The position numbers and the translations under genes were made by a program. A DNA stretch of 64,000 nucleotides. Source: an uncultured Clostridia bacterium. GTDB taxonomy: Bacteria; Bacillota; Clostridia; Lachnospirales; CAG-274. Shown here one piece after another: positions 3,417 through 32,724 of the stretch (position 1 is the first letter of the stretch; every line of letters begins with the position of its first letter). The DNA is taken from assembly GCA_944381435.1 (NCBI GenBank), contig CALWLD010000001.1, positions 124,001-188,000 on the forward strand. Reading direction: 5' to 3'. The notes under the pieces were generated by a model. That model made no database searches, was not told the DNA's origin, and saw only the letters and a list, made by a program, of their open reading frames with translations.

Positions 3417-4943
3417 ATGATTTATTCAAGAAGATATAGTAGAAACTTTGTACCATTAAAACAAGATAACCAAAAGCATAATTTAGATTTTAGACCTTCT
3501 TTAGGTAGATGCGTAATAGAAATAAAAGATAACAAAGGGAAAATAACTCTTTATGCACAAGGAATAAAGCCTAAAAACGATTATTACCTAGAGCTTATAG
3601 GCTTTGAAAAAGGCAATATAAAAAATGCATCTTTAGGTAAATTTAATGTAGATTCCTATGGCAAAGGAGAATTCTCTGTATATTTTGACCCAGATAATAT
3701 AGGAAATAACAAAATAGAAGATTTTAACGTAATATCTGTTATGGTTAAAGAAGATAATGATATATCTTCTGCTTTAGTTGGATATATAGAAAATGAAATA
3801 GATTGGGAAGATAGCTACCGACAAAATGCAATTATTAATATACCTAAAGAGGATTGTGGTTGCATAGAAAAGCCTGAAGATGACAAAGAAAATGAAGATA
3901 ACAACAATAACCAAGATAAAGAAGAAAATGAAGATAACAACAATAACCAAGATAAAGAAGAAAATGATAAAACAGAGCTAGAACAAGGCCTCATTGACAA
4001 AGAAGAAGGGCTTTTAGAGCGTGAAAAAGGGCTTATTGATAGAGAAAAAGGCTTAACTAACAGAGAAGAAAATAACATAAGACTTCCTTTAGATGAATAT
4101 GAAAAAAATCTCAAAAACAAATTAGATAACCTTGCAGAAAAAGAAAAAGGGCTTGCAGAAAAAGAGCAGGGACTTTTAGAAAAAGAAAGAGCCTTAAGAG
4201 AAGGCTTTTTACCTACAGATGATAAAGAAATAAGAGAGAAAGAGCTAGAGCTTATAAAAAAAGAAATGGAGCTTATAAAAATAGAGCAAGAGCTTATTAA
4301 CAGAGAAAGAAACCTTATAAGAACAAACCCTACATCTGATAGAGAAAGAGGGCTTATAGAAAAAGAAAAAGGTATTTTAGAACGTGAGCAAGGTTTATTG
4401 GAGCGTGAAAAAGGGCTTATAGAAAAAGAAAAAGGGCTTTTAGAGATAGAAAAAGGTATAAGAGAAAAAAATAAATATACTAAAAAAGATGTAGAAGAAA
4501 AAACAAGCCACGAAACCTTTAAAGAAATGCTTAATAACATTAAAAGAAATATGCTTAATATAGAAAATTTTAAAACAGAAGAAAAGGGGAATAAAAACGT
4601 TAACTATATAAAAAATAACAATGCTATAATGACACCTTTTGTTAATAGCGATGAAAACATAAAATGGTACAGAATATCACCTTATGAGCTAACTAGCTTA
4701 ACAGAGGATAGCCATAAATACAGCAATAACCCTTTTGTATTTACATCTTATAAAAAATACAAACACCTAATGCTAGGCGTTGATGATAGCAAAGAAGAAG
4801 AAAGCTATATATTAGCTATACCTTGTAGATATGAAAAGGACTTTAGCATATCTAGCCTTGAAAAATTTTTACCTATAGATAACGGGGTTTCTATACAAAA
4901 TATAGATAACGGAGAATATGGCTATAGAATAGTAAAATTATAA
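3417..4943 (+). CDS. Large heptad-repeat protein with globular ends, unknown function
   Basis: A 508-residue protein with no signal peptide or membrane segment. Residues 1 to about 130 look like a beta-rich domain (GRCVIEIKDNKGKITLYAQG). Residues about 145-185 are acidic and asparagine-rich and include a 36-bp in-frame direct repeat (3891-3926, 3927-3962). Residues about 185-360 are built of 7-residue units of the form GLLEREK/GLIDREK in three blocks. The C-terminal 110 residues (WYRISPYELTSL onward) look globular again. I recall similar end domains in clostridial proteins annotated as surface or spore-coat-like, but that is uncertain. AAGGGGGA precedes the ATG, and a terminator follows, so it is monocistronic. 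I do not assign a function. Confidence 0.8.
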   Translation: MIYSRRYSRNFVPLKQDNQKHNLDFRPSLGRCVIEIKDNKGKITLYAQGIKPKNDYYLELIGFEKGNIKNASLGKFNVDSYGKGEFSVYFDPDNIGNNKIEDFNVISVMVKEDNDISSALVGYIENEIDWEDSYRQNAIINIPKEDCGCIEKPEDDKENEDNNNNQDKEENEDNNNNQDKEENDKTELEQGLIDKEEGLLEREKGLIDREKGLTNREENNIRLPLDEYEKNLKNKLDNLAEKEKGLAEKEQGLLEKERALREGFLPTDDKEIREKELELIKKEMELIKIEQELINRERNLIRTNPTSDRERGLIEKEKGILEREQGLLEREKGLIEKEKGLLEIEKGIREKNKYTKKDVEEKTSHETFKEMLNNIKRNMLNIENFKTEEKGNKNVNYIKNNNAIMTPFVNSDENIKWYRISPYELTSLTEDSHKYSNNPFVFTSYKKYKHLMLGVDDSKEEESYILAIPCRYEKDFSISSLEKFLPIDNGVSIQNIDNGEYGYRIVKL

Positions 4944-4945
4944 AA

Positions 4946-4980
4946 TAAAAACAGTGGGTTTAACCCACTGTTTTTATTTT
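4946..4980. terminator. Bidirectional intrinsic terminator
   Basis: Arms ACAGTGGGTT and AACCCACTGT (4951-4971) are flanked by an A tract on the left and TTTTTATTTT on the right. It can therefore stop transcription of the heptad-repeat gene (+) and of ndoA (-), which converge here. Confidence 0.88.
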
Positions 4981-14753: not shown

Positions 14754-15482
14754 TTAAGATATATCAAAAAATGGATTTCTCCTAGCAAAATCTACAAATA
14801 CAAACCTATCTGGCCTATGTCTAGACTCTGTATATTGAAAAATGTTAGTATCTTCTAAATATGTATAGCTTTTTACAACTGCAACTGTGTCATAATCTTT
14901 TAAATCTAAATACATTTTATCTTCTTCTGTGCATTTTTCAACAGTTATTTGTTTTTTAGCATAAGCTATTTTTAATTTTAGCTTGTTTTCTATATATTCG
15001 TATAAAGAGTTTTTGCAAATATCATAAGTTAAATCTTTTACATATTTTTTTAATATAAAATCTTTATCTAGTATAATATTTTCATTGTCTATTTTTCTTG
15101 TTCTATATATTTTCCAAGCAGTTTCATTTTTATTAAAATTAAGATGAGCATATTTATTGCCTTTTATTTCAATACATTCTAAGATTTTTACATCTGTATC
15201 AAAGTCTTTGCCTAACCTTTTTCCAAGCTCCTTAAAGCTAACAACCCCAGATACAGGAAAGGAAAATCTATTTATATCTAAAACAAAGGAGCCTTTTCCT
15301 TGAGCCTTTTGTATATATCCTTCTTGGGTTAATATATTTAAAGATTTTCTTATTGTATCTCTGGATACGTTGTAAGCTTTCATAAGCTCTGTTTCAGAAG
15401 GTAGCAAATCGTTAGGTTTATATTTACCGTTTTTTATATGGTTAGCTAGTTCTTTATATATAGTTAAATACTTATTGCTCAT
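14754..15482 (-). CDS. treR: Trehalose operon repressor TreR (GntR family, UTRA domain)
   Basis: A 242-residue transcription factor. Residues 1-65 are a GntR winged helix (LPSETELMKAYNVSRDTIRK, EGYIQKAQGKGSFV). The rest is a UTRA effector domain with FPVSGVVSFKELGKRLGK, KIDNENIILDKDF and QYTESRHRPDRFVFVDFARR, which closely follow B. subtilis TreR. TreR is released from DNA by trehalose-6-phosphate. It is the last gene of treP-treA-treR, 35 bp after treA, and a matching operator lies before treP. Confidence 0.94.
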   Translation of the reverse strand: MSNKYLTIYKELANHIKNGKYKPNDLLPSETELMKAYNVSRDTIRKSLNILTQEGYIQKAQGKGSFVLDINRFSFPVSGVVSFKELGKRLGKDFDTDVKILECIEIKGNKYAHLNFNKNETAWKIYRTRKIDNENIILDKDFILKKYVKDLTYDICKNSLYEYIENKLKLKIAYAKKQITVEKCTEEDKMYLDLKDYDTVAVVKSYTYLEDTNIFQYTESRHRPDRFVFVDFARRNPFFDIS

Positions 15483-25910: not shown

Positions 25911-27266
25911 ATGGCAGATGCAAATAATATAAACATAAATCCAGAAATACCACCTAACGATTTTGAGGCAGAACAAGCTGTTATAAGCAGTATGATATTT
26001 GATATAGACGGTATAGCAGTTGCTTATGAAATGTTAAAGCCTGAAGATTTTTACAGACCAGAGCATAAGGTTATATTTGAGGCTATCGTAGAAATGTACT
26101 CTAACAGCCAACCTGTAGATGTTATAACCCTTAAAAACAAGCTTGAGGCTATGAATATGCTATCTAACATAGGTGGCTATGAATACATAGTTGAGCTTAA
26201 TAACATTGTATCTACAAGTGCTTTAACAAAGCAATATGCAGAAATTGTTAAGGAAAAATCTATAAGGCGTAAAATATTAAAAGCATCTAAAGATATTAAT
26301 GCTTTAACTTTTGATAACAGCCAAACTATAGAAAATATTGTAGATAGAGCAGAAAAAATAATAGAAGGTATAGGGGATAGCAACAATTTAGATGATTTTT
26401 CCCCTATTAGCCAAATTTTAGAAACATCTATAGAAAATATAGAAAACCTTTATAAAAACAAAAGTAACGTTACAGGTATAGAAACAGGCTTTACCGATTT
26501 TGATATGAAAACATCAGGGCTTCAAAAGTCAGATTTTATACTTATAGCTGCAAGACCTTCTATGGGTAAAACGGCTTTTGTTATTAACATTGCACAATAC
26601 GCAGCGTTACATAAAAACGTTACAACAGCTATTTTTAGCCTTGAAATGTCTAAAGAGCAGTTGGTTAACCGTATGATATGTACAGAAGCTTTGGTAGATG
26701 CTCATAAGCTTAGAACAGGGGATATACAAGCAGATGATTGGTACAAAATAGCAGAGGCGGTTGCCGCTTTATCAGAAGCTCCTATTTATATAGACGATAA
26801 ATCTTCTATTACTATACCAGAACTTCGTGCTAAATGCAGAAGGCTTAAAAAAGAAAAAAACTTAGGTCTTGTTGTTATAGATTATCTTCAGCTTATGAAC
26901 GGTAGCGGTAAAAACGAAAATAGGCAACAAGAAATTTCTAACATATCTCGTGCTTTAAAAGGGCTTGCTAGAGAGCTTGATGTGCCTGTTGTTGCTTTAT
27001 CACAGCTTAGCAGGGCGGTGGAACAAAGAAAACCTCCAAAGCCTATGTTATCCGACCTTAGAGAATCGGGAGCTATAGAGCAAGATGCCGATTTAGTTTG
27101 CTTTTTATATAGAGATGAATACTATAACCCTGAAAGCGAAAAAAGAGGACAAGCAGAGGTTATCATTGCTAAACAAAGAAACGGCTCTGTTGGGACAGTT
27201 AATCTTAGTTGGCTTGGGCAATATACAAAATTTGCTAATTTAGAGCGAACATATAACGACTTATAA
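25911..27266 (+). CDS. dnaB: Replicative DNA helicase DnaB
   Basis: A 451-residue hexameric helicase that unwinds DNA at the replication fork (called DnaC in Bacillus). The N-terminal domain starts PPNDFEAEQAVISSMI. The RecA-like domain has Walker A ARPSMGKTAF (about residue 215), Walker B LVVIDYLQLM, the arginine-finger region and KQRNGSVGTV. No intein. It follows rplI by 8 bp with only GGTAATGTT before the ATG as a weak binding site, so translation may be coupled. Confidence 0.97.
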   Translation: MADANNININPEIPPNDFEAEQAVISSMIFDIDGIAVAYEMLKPEDFYRPEHKVIFEAIVEMYSNSQPVDVITLKNKLEAMNMLSNIGGYEYIVELNNIVSTSALTKQYAEIVKEKSIRRKILKASKDINALTFDNSQTIENIVDRAEKIIEGIGDSNNLDDFSPISQILETSIENIENLYKNKSNVTGIETGFTDFDMKTSGLQKSDFILIAARPSMGKTAFVINIAQYAALHKNVTTAIFSLEMSKEQLVNRMICTEALVDAHKLRTGDIQADDWYKIAEAVAALSEAPIYIDDKSSITIPELRAKCRRLKKEKNLGLVVIDYLQLMNGSGKNENRQQEISNISRALKGLARELDVPVVALSQLSRAVEQRKPPKPMLSDLRESGAIEQDADLVCFLYRDEYYNPESEKRGQAEVIIAKQRNGSVGTVNLSWLGQYTKFANLERTYNDL

Positions 27267-27280
27267 ATAAATAAATTAGC

Positions 27281-27335
27281 TTGGCATATATGATAACAGA
27301 TTATTTATTAATTTATTATTATATATGCCAAATTT
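27281..27335 (+). terminator. Hairpin after dnaB, possible terminator
   Basis: A 16-nt arm TTGGCATATATGATAA (27281-27296) pairs with 27316-27331 with one G-T wobble. Downstream is ATTTATATA, a weak U tract. It separates the dnaB operon from the unknown cassette. Confidence 0.5.
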
Positions 27336-27367: not shown

Positions 27368-27856
27368 ATGGAGAATTTTTTATTAGATTTTATACTTTCA
27401 GGTTTTCTATTTTTAGTAATGCTTGATATTGCATTTTTTAAACCTTTAGTTATTTATTATATACAAACAGTTTTAATAAAAGGGATTATACTTGTTAATA
27501 TTTGTGGAAAATGTAAAAAAGATTTTACAAATAAAGAAATATTGAGTTTATATTTTAAAGATGTTTTAAAATATAAAATATTAATGCAGGCTTTTATGAA
27601 TTTGATAGCAGTATATTACAGTTTATTTTTAGATAACAGAGATATAGATGATAGCTATGCTTTTCTTATTTGTATTTTTGCTATTTTAATGATTATTATT
27701 AGTTATAAAATGCTTTATAAAAAATATGAAAAAATTTTTAATAGCAAAAAAATGTGTAAATTGTATAGCCTTTTAGCAATGCCAGATATATTAGTAACTT
27801 TAATTTATAATTTTATATTATCAAGCACAGCATCTAGCATTTTATATATAACATAG
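27368..27856 (+). CDS. Unknown integral membrane protein, first gene of a four-gene cassette
   Basis: A 162-residue protein with about four hydrophobic segments (LDFILSGFLFLVMLDIAFF, LIAVYYSLFL, AFLICIFAILMIIISY, LVTLIYNFIL) and a CGKC pair near residue 47 in the first loop. No family recognised. It is followed 9 bp later by three genes for membrane-anchored proteins, so it may be their membrane partner, which is only inference from position. A GAGGTAAT site precedes the ATG. Very low GC even for this genome. Confidence 0.65.
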   Translation: MENFLLDFILSGFLFLVMLDIAFFKPLVIYYIQTVLIKGIILVNICGKCKKDFTNKEILSLYFKDVLKYKILMQAFMNLIAVYYSLFLDNRDIDDSYAFLICIFAILMIIISYKMLYKKYEKIFNSKKMCKLYSLLAMPDILVTLIYNFILSSTASSILYIT

Positions 27857-27865
27857 GAGGGGGTT

Positions 27866-28447
27866 ATGAAAGATAAAAAAATATTTATAGCTATCTTTAT
27901 AGTTGTGTTAATATGTATTATATTTTTTAGCTATAAAAAAGATAAACCTATAGAAGATGATGATATGTACATAGAAAATGTAAATTTATCTAGCGACGAA
28001 TATCCTATATTAAATGCATTAGATGGTGAAAGTATGTTTTTTAATTATAAAGTAAATAAAAGCATAAATAAAATGAAAATTAGTTTTTATAAATATCAAG
28101 ATGAAAATTGGATTTTATTTCAAGAACATATACATAATTTAGATTTGCCAACTAGAAGAGAAAATGTTATAGGGTTAGAGCTAGATGAAAAATATATTTA
28201 TATTATACAAGAAATTAGAAAAAATCAAGTTACCCAGCCTAAGTATGAACACAATATAAATTTTAATAATTTAGAATATATAACAAAAAATAATTTAACA
28301 AAAGAAACTATTGAGCTTAACAAAGAGATAGTTTTATTTAGACAATATGCTTATAAAGAAGAGCAAGATAAAGGGCAAGAAAGCCAAGATTTTAGAAAAG
28401 ATAAATGCGATGAAGGTTTAGTTATAACTATATGTTTTACAGAATAA
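27866..28447 (+). CDS. Unknown membrane-anchored protein, paralogue A of three
   Basis: A 193-residue protein: one N-terminal helix (IFIAIFIVVLICIIFFS), then an exported domain. Two blocks recur in the next two genes: FFNYKVNKSINKMKISFYKY (about residues 55-75) followed by a W residue, and a C-terminal NKEIVLFRQYAYKEE...GLVITICF. No cysteine follows the helix in lipobox position, so it is probably a membrane anchor, not a lipoprotein. No family recognised. AGGAGGG lies ahead of the ATG. Confidence 0.7.
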   Translation: MKDKKIFIAIFIVVLICIIFFSYKKDKPIEDDDMYIENVNLSSDEYPILNALDGESMFFNYKVNKSINKMKISFYKYQDENWILFQEHIHNLDLPTRRENVIGLELDEKYIYIIQEIRKNQVTQPKYEHNINFNNLEYITKNNLTKETIELNKEIVLFRQYAYKEEQDKGQESQDFRKDKCDEGLVITICFTE

Positions 28448-28464
28448 GCTTTTGAGGTGATAAT

Positions 28465-29079
28465 ATGAAAAATAAAAATACCTTAATGTCTATATTTTTA
28501 ATTATTGTAGTTTTTGGTATATTTTTAAAATATAATAATGCTAGCAAGATAGAGCCTAAAGAAGAGGGTAAAAAACAGGCTAGTCAAGGGCGAATGTATC
28601 TTAATAAAATTACATTAACAGATGAGCAAAAAGAAAAAGTAAAAAATAAAAATGACAATGAAATATTCGCCTTTGAATATAACTTAGATGACAACATAAA
28701 ATCTGTAGAAATGGAATTTATAGAAAGTGATAAAAAAGAAGAAATTAAAGTTATTGAAACGTCAGGTTTTAATTTAGAAAAAGATGAAAATAACGGAATA
28801 TTAATTTTTATAATAGAAGAAGATAAGCTTCAAGGTGGAATTTTAACTAATAATGTAGGACCTTTTATGCATATCTTTAATAGGAACACAGATGATGATA
28901 TATCAAAGGCTGTAGTAGAATATCAAACAAAGGCAGAAGTTGTACCTAATAAAGAAATAGTTATTTTTGAAAAATATGAGTATGAAAATAATGAAGAGGC
29001 AAAAACTCCTGATTCTAAAGAAGAAAAAGGGGATAAAAGCCTAATTATAAAAGTAACTTTTAAAGATACTATAATATAA
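28465..29079 (+). CDS. Unknown membrane-anchored protein, paralogue B of three
   Basis: A 204-residue protein with an N-terminal helix (LMSIFLIIVVFGIFL) and an acidic, lysine-rich exported domain. It shares with its neighbours the block FAFEYNLDDNIKSVEMEF and the C-terminal NKEIVIFEKYEYEN...SLIIKVTF. It begins 17 bp after paralogue A with a GAGGTGA site. Function unknown. The spacing and same-strand order suggest one operon of four. Confidence 0.7.
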   Translation: MKNKNTLMSIFLIIVVFGIFLKYNNASKIEPKEEGKKQASQGRMYLNKITLTDEQKEKVKNKNDNEIFAFEYNLDDNIKSVEMEFIESDKKEEIKVIETSGFNLEKDENNGILIFIIEEDKLQGGILTNNVGPFMHIFNRNTDDDISKAVVEYQTKAEVVPNKEIVIFEKYEYENNEEAKTPDSKEEKGDKSLIIKVTFKDTII

Positions 29080-29094
29080 AAGGATAGTGATTAT

Positions 29095-29595
29095 ATGAAA
29101 AAAATAGCGATTTTAATAATTTTAGCTATATGTTTTATAGGGCTTATACTTTCTTTAGTGATACAAAAAAATATGACTATTAAAGTCAAGGAAACAAAAG
29201 ATGAATTTAACAACACACAATATACTTTTAGTTATAAGGTAGATGATGGCATAAAAAATTTTGCTATAAATCTTTGGAAAAAGGAAAATGAAAATTGGGT
29301 TTGCTTTGGCACAATATATGATGAAAACATAAAAAGCAAAGATACAATAACTTTAACTTTAAAAGAAGATGTTTACAAAATAAACAATACAACATATAAA
29401 AAGCCTTTTAGAGATGAAGAACATAGTGGATTTAGCCAAGCTTTAGAAGGTATAACACCTATAAAAGCAAATGAGGAAATATTTTTATATAACAGGTATG
29501 CTTATTTAGGTAGCAGAGTTACAGATGAAATGGATATTTTAAAAAATCTACAAAGTGCAGATAAGGCTATTGCCATAACATTAAAGTTTTATTAA
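29095..29595 (+). CDS. Unknown membrane-anchored protein, paralogue C of three
   Basis: A 166-residue protein, the shortest of the three paralogues: N-terminal helix IAILIILAICFIGLILSLVI, then YTFSYKVDDGIKNFAINLWK followed by W, and the C-terminal block NEEIFLYNRYAYLG...KAIAITLKF. It begins 15 bp after paralogue B with an AAGGA site. The three proteins align along their length by eye at low identity, which points to old tandem duplication. Function unknown. Confidence 0.7.
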   Translation: MKKIAILIILAICFIGLILSLVIQKNMTIKVKETKDEFNNTQYTFSYKVDDGIKNFAINLWKKENENWVCFGTIYDENIKSKDTITLTLKEDVYKINNTTYKKPFRDEEHSGFSQALEGITPIKANEEIFLYNRYAYLGSRVTDEMDILKNLQSADKAIAITLKFY

Positions 29596-29659: not shown

Positions 29660-29688
29660 TAATATAATAAAAATTTATGGAGGAAGAT

Positions 29689-32349: not shown

Positions 32350-32724
32350 ATGAAAAAAATAATTTTAGCTTTATGTATGGTTTTTGCTATTGCTTTAGTT
32401 GGTTGTTCAAAAGAAGAAACAACAAGCCCTATTGATAATATGACTGAAGATGAAAAAACAGCACTTTTTACCCTTATGCAAGAAAACCTTGTTGGAGAAT
32501 ATGAAAGCGAAGATGGAGAAATTTTTCAAGTAACTCCAGAAGGTAAGTTTTTATACGAAGGCTCAAGCGGTTTAGTTTCTTTAGCTTACAACCTTGTAGA
32601 TGCAGGTAACGTTGAGGTTACAGGGGCAGACGGCAAAACAAAAACAGAAAGCATTTATTTTGAAGATATGGGCGACAAATTTAAGCTAGAATATGGTAAA
32701 AAAACATACTATAGAACAAAATAA
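32350..32724 (+). CDS. Small putative lipoprotein of unknown function
   Basis: A 124-residue protein with a signal peptide and lipobox ALVGC (cysteine at about residue 19), then an acidic domain. EYESEDGEIFQVTPEGKFLYEG and the end FEDMGDKFKLEYGKKTYY suggest a small beta-barrel-like domain. No family recognised. It follows alaS by 24 bp with an AGAGGGGAA site and is closed by a terminator, so it likely rides on the alaS transcript. Confidence 0.75.
   Translation: MKKIILALCMVFAIALVGCSKEETTSPIDNMTEDEKTALFTLMQENLVGEYESEDGEIFQVTPEGKFLYEGSSGLVSLAYNLVDAGNVEVTGADGKTKTESIYFEDMGDKFKLEYGKKTYYRTK

Follow-up and report, generated by a model that had tools for sequence, protein, structure and literature searches.

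Among the closest known counterparts of the proteins discussed in this article are the receptor and repressor pairs BlaR1/MecR1 and BlaI/MecI. The C-terminal extracellular domain of BlaR1 is a beta-lactam sensor, and its engagement leads to the cleavage of BlaI (PMC7593790). In one gene from the Bacillota (L123), a previously unlabelled domain sits at the position of that sensor, C-terminal in an M56 peptidase and with a repressor gene adjacent, but this domain differs from the beta-lactamase-like sensor of BlaR1. The three window proteins that are my subject differ further, since they have neither the M56 peptidase part (no Pfam match) nor an adjacent BlaI/MecI repressor, their neighbours being dnaB, a membrane protein and alaS. 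Another point of reference is a group of Bacillota lipoproteins of about 200 aa (such as those of Massilimicrobiota timonensis An13, L082, and of genome G149, L083), which have in common with the window copies the domain, a similar length and the conserved positions F/YxYxxD...IK, W, IExNKEIxL and a C-terminal ITxTF; these lipoproteins, however, have the lipobox cysteine and for the most part occur singly, at places unrelated to one another, whereas the window copies have a plain transmembrane helix and form a tandem array. In shape alone, galectin/legume-lectin-like and Ig-like sandwiches have the general two-sheet layout in common with the family (VIA Z 4.4 or less), but their scores lie within the beta-sandwich background, with neither a sequence relation nor common binding residues shown.

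The window, by which I mean the whole stretch of 64,000 nucleotides that was analysed, comes from an uncultured gut bacterium of the Clostridia. I will argue that three small genes in it (p1, p2 and p3) are, on balance, best read as a tandem expansion of a family of extracytoplasmic beta-sandwich proteins whose domain would face outward and serve in binding or sensing.

The stretch between dnaB and alaS

A sequence-only reading of this DNA had placed four open reading frames between dnaB and alaS, and all of them are there, on the forward strand. The features are these:

dnaB, ending at 27266: upstream flank of the four-gene stretch
27281..27333, + strand: AT-rich inverted repeat 3' of dnaB, TTGGCATATAT ... 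ATATATGCCAA, read from the sequence
27368-27856, + strand: polytopic membrane protein, 162 aa (open reading frame, hydrophobic segments)
27866-28447, + strand: paralogue 1 (p1), 193 aa, predicted transmembrane helix at residues 2-25 and beta-sandwich at about 35-193 (open reading frame, AF2, profile)
28465-29079, + strand: paralogue 2 (p2), 204 aa, designed as p1 and p3 and the farthest of the three from the family profile
29095-29595, + strand: paralogue 3 (p3), 166 aa, predicted transmembrane helix at residues 2-24 and beta-sandwich (open reading frame, AF2, profile)
alaS, starting at 29677: downstream flank of the four-gene stretch

A consensus terminator scan did not report the inverted repeat, and a comparable palindrome (CCTTTATCTTA...TAAGATAAAGG) lies 3' of dnaB in the sister genomes G001, G005, G006 and G007. 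Since this repeat is probably the end of the dnaB transcript, the gaps among the four frames are tight (9, 17 and 15 bases) and probable ribosome-binding sites, the Shine-Dalgarno-like AGGAGGGGG, GAGGTG and AAAGGA, stand ahead of p1, p2 and p3, respectively, it is plausible that the four genes lie on one transcript.

The protein encoded at 27368 has four or five hydrophobic stretches and agrees with the polytopic membrane protein that had been described ahead of the paralogues. It has no family match, and a search of 96 relatives, among them the other genomes of the genus, gave no convincing homologue; the paralogue profile gives it -1.4 bits, and a candidate second homologue in its own genome (L033) turned out to be an unrelated transporter-like protein. 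The close spacing and plausible ribosome-binding sites, which suggest one transcript in this genome, would suit a functional four-gene cassette in which the membrane protein works with the three paralogues, but a homologue of it was found in no sister genome, and four of these genomes, G001, G003, G005 and G007, have the paralogues but not the membrane protein (the G003 contig ends inside the array, and the absence there comes from the homologue search). Because the 27368 protein occurs only in this genome, the four genes are not a conserved unit, and the membrane protein is adjacent to the paralogues without being a conserved partner; the cassette that the sequence-only reading had drawn around all four genes is not supported by this comparison, and I consider a joint function very improbable.

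The same reading had called the stretch more AT-rich than its neighbours, which the GC content bears out (0.19-0.26, against 0.33-0.35 in dnaB and alaS) as a property that is not unique within the window. Because other window genes also drop to 0.19-0.25, and low GC goes with the family copies in every sister genome examined, AT-richness by itself does not indicate foreign DNA. A mobile or foreign origin was considered and rejected on these grounds and on the plasmid, phage and viral collections searched, in which the family has no relatives. On the far side of the array, 3' of alaS, a small lipoprotein without a Pfam match is encoded at 32350-32724, and it has the same place in G005 (L048 reverse complement 4579-4953).

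Kinship of the three small proteins

A search of the own genome with p1 finds p2 (E 1.3e-4), p3 (0.003) and no further match. With the first 25 residues cut, Smith-Waterman z-scores over 2000 shuffles are 9.5 for p1/p2, 9.2 for p1/p3 and 4.2 for p2/p3, the first two alignments beating every shuffle and the last nearly all of them. The strongest evidence for kinship is indirect, and comes from a sequence profile built of 18 members, none from the genus of the window, which detects p1 at 1.1e-27 (94.5 bits), p3 at 4.4e-11 (40.3 bits) and p2 at 5.5e-8 (30.2 bits), where 3000 shuffles top out at 18.1 bits. By these comparisons p1, p2 and p3 are true homologues, diverged copies of one small protein. 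The description of three tandem paralogues of one design is thus upheld by the shuffles, by the out-of-genus profile and by the p1 and p3 models discussed below, as is that of one N-terminal helix in each by the single N-terminal hydrophobic segment of p1, p2 and p3.

Relatives across Bacillota

The window proteins have no convincing match in Pfam-A, NCBIfam or PHROGs (a match being taken at the curated cut-off for the first two and at a convincing E-value for PHROGs), and none of 37 family members exceeds the cut-off in Pfam or NCBIfam, the best Pfam row, DOMON, lying far under it at 0.0083. The earlier remark that no family could be recognised therefore holds for the curated libraries, where HMM searches gave no clear match to a known family, and literature searches on the family found nothing. 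Stepwise profile searches, with the family defined by profiles A5/A6, gathered relatives in 14 of 397 other genomes sampled across the phylum, in 14 of 390 from the class and, at the level of the order with the genus excluded, in 12 of 287, so that the family is present in about 4% of the sampled genomes, scattered over Bacillota; a few of the weakest matches behind these counts cover the N-terminal part only, may be signal-peptide artefacts and should not be counted. Massilimicrobiota also has family members, and two further matches there (L192 and L193) were discarded as signal-peptide matches to other lipoproteins. There is strong support from these alignments and models for treating p1-p3 not as orphans but as members of a Bacillota family, sparse and uncurated, whose proteins are small extracytoplasmic beta-sandwiches; the family is ordinary in kind, previously unlabelled and of modest novelty.

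Members are typically lipoproteins of about 200 aa that occur singly, with no fixed neighbours. A lipobox is recognised by a simple pattern in 39 of 49 family frames (from 48 fetched loci); among the negative frames several are truncated or have a near-lipobox sequence, and the M56 fusion (L123) and L110 are also without it. The lipobox is common in the family without being universal, and so does not define the domain. The pattern, [LVIMTAF][ASTGVI][GAS]C, is absent from the N-termini of p1, p2 and p3, which belong to the domain family but by this test are not lipoproteins. In an alignment of 27 members the only invariant columns are E154 and F191, with W82 nearly so, and the absence of a conserved His/Ser/Asp set argues against reading these proteins as enzymes. 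Clustering of neighbours over the 48 loci returned no recurrent partner, and the groups that formed were all large and generic (chemotaxis receptors, response regulators, kinases and ABC ATPases); neighbours are not conserved, and therefore genomic context lends no support to a particular pathway.

Predicted fold

The sequence-only reading had itself pointed out that unrelated folds would count against a common design. The AF2 model of p1 (pLDDT 85.7) consists of an N-terminal helix followed by beta-strands, and that of p3 (pLDDT 90.9) of a helix and then strands in the order of p1, so that the two models agree; a common predicted fold of an N-terminal membrane helix and a beta-sandwich is strongly supported by them. 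Foldseek with these two confident models gave no significant match (best E 0.03), and in the VIA comparison with the PDB no solved structure stands out: galectin rows top the list at Z 4.1-4.4, level with unrelated sandwiches, and even the best of them, a galectin-like structure at 4.4, lies under the level that the tool treats as meaningful. No PDB chain stands out for the family by sequence search either; the sequence-profile matches to DUF4465 (9fct, 0.0014) and zinc-alpha-2-glycoprotein (0.004) are unconvincing, the former overlapping the signal peptide.

History of the site within the genus

Eight genomes sample the genus, the one discussed here being G000, and among them the family is confined to the dnaB-alaS junction, its copies lying either 3' of dnaB or 5' of alaS. 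Three copies are found there in G000 and in G001, at least two in G003 (where the contig ends inside the array), one in G005 and one with a decayed extra piece in G007; G006 retains a decayed C-terminal piece only (E 2e-8), and G002 and G004 have no copies and a rearranged junction. With sister spacers that hold one, three or at least two copies or a remnant, and with two that are rearranged, it was too strong to say that the genes interrupt a conserved housekeeping area.

In the tree, a branch with support 92/90 separates the genus copies from the rest, p3 pairs with G001c (100/100), and p1, p2, G001a and G001b group together (99/95); the positional orthologue of p1 is G001a, at 43% identity. 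The pairing of p3 with G001c and the grouping of the remaining four strongly support a duplication older than the split of G000 and G001, and there is likewise strong support that the copies of the genus arose once, at the dnaB-alaS site, that copies were lost or decayed in sister species and that the proteins diverged rapidly. Between G000 and G001, pN reaches 0.33-0.35 (p1/G001a and p3/G001c) compared with 0.05 for dnaB, and in both pairs amino-acid-changing changes per site are fewer than silent ones. Silent sites approach saturation in every gene, so that dS is unusable for claiming positive selection, and the high pN is to be read as weak or changing constraint and not as proven positive selection.

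Several smaller observations belong to this junction. The single copy of G005 (L048, reverse complement about 1238) has an apparent ATT start where its decayed relative in G006 has ATG. In G002, two loci match the 3' part of the window dnaB, L040 (C3:119030-119669) at 81% identity and L042 (C13:858-1486) at 78%, possibly two copies of dnaB. In G004 (L047:1917-5786), a GntR/UTRA regulator and apparent sugar hydrolase and PTS genes replace the paralogues 3' of dnaB, on the opposite strand, and the window has a GntR gene similar to that regulator at 14754-15482.

What the proteins may do

The lead to function is the fusion protein introduced above (L123:5039-6619), in which Peptidase_M56 covers residues 13-314 (1e-46) and the family domain, probably extracellular here, residues 325-525, the latter detected at 1.9e-8 by a profile that does not contain L123. 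The gene upstream of the fusion, and overlapping it, encodes a BlaI-type repressor (Penicillinase_R, 2.3e-29). It is the only M56 fusion of the domain that was found.

I propose that a genus-specific tandem expansion of the Bacillota family at the dnaB-alaS site gave p1-p3, and that an uncleaved N-terminal helix, not a lipobox, probably anchors the genus copies. Judging from the lipoboxes of relatives and from the M56 fusion, the domain would face outward, where it may be a non-catalytic module that binds or senses an envelope or environmental ligand, and the stand-alone copies may bind the same kind of ligand as the fusion without its built-in protease output. Such an outward, non-catalytic role is favoured because the predicted fold is a beta-sandwich, the anchor is a lipid or a helix, a catalytic set is absent and the domain is fused to an M56 peptidase. 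The family and evolutionary part of this explanation is close to certain; binding or sensing, argued by analogy, is the likeliest role for the domain and still a tentative one. The more ambitious version, in which M56/BlaI signalling has an extracytoplasmic sensor domain, so far uncharacterised, that also occurs as separate anchored proteins, and in which the tandem copies have diversified as receptors or decoys that address a single class of envelope signal in gut Bacillota, has a low probability.

The history of the locus invites other explanations. Were these protective, immunity-type surface lipoproteins, each copy blocking a different bacteriocin, secreted toxin or phage factor, this would explain the tandem copies, the fast divergence and the gain and loss between species, and it would be consistent with the birth and death of tandem copies and rapid protein change at a single site, with the patchy distribution and with the tandem pairs that also occur in G613 and G801; yet genes for toxins, bacteriocins or secretion do not recur beside the family over the 48 loci, the family is absent from the phage, plasmid and viral collections searched, most relatives are single copies amid unrelated genes, and the M56 fusion is left unexplained. 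I regard protection as unlikely. An exposed beta-sandwich, as predicted, a pN that is high relative to the flanking genes and a copy number that varies within the genus might also be expected of surface adhesins or antigens diversifying under host immune or niche pressure. Single domains of ~140-170 residues near the membrane, however, would barely clear a Gram-positive wall, there are no repeats, stalk or sortase signal, and with synonymous sites near saturation positive selection is not shown, all of which makes this proposal improbable.

It could also be that the genes are drifting and near-dispensable, with little current function, as their AT-richness and fast change, the decayed remnants in G006 and G007 and the ATT in place of ATG in the G005 copy would suggest. 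This, too, is decidedly unlikely, considering that G000 and G001 both retain three full-length frames and their ribosome-binding sites, that the conserved positions hold across distant Bacillota, and that p1/G001a and p3/G001c have fewer amino-acid changes per site than silent ones.

Whichever role is correct, previously unlabelled genes are now joined into one traceable Bacillota domain family, with a single BlaR1-type fusion as the first functional lead. If the sensing proposal is true, M56/BlaI-like systems would answer signals other than beta-lactams, and the scatter of stand-alone copies in gut genomes would be explained; if it is false, the value would lie mainly in annotation, through a new model for the family and a locus where the birth and decay of genes can be followed clearly. 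A separate observation concerns G580, where an M56 BlaR1-type peptidase (L111:3428-5335) has a LytR_cpsA_psr domain (1.5e-32) at the sensor position, a BlaI-type repressor adjoining it and a family member about 1.5 kb away; the LytR_cpsA_psr domain of this protein suggests that M56 proteins swap their extracytoplasmic domains.
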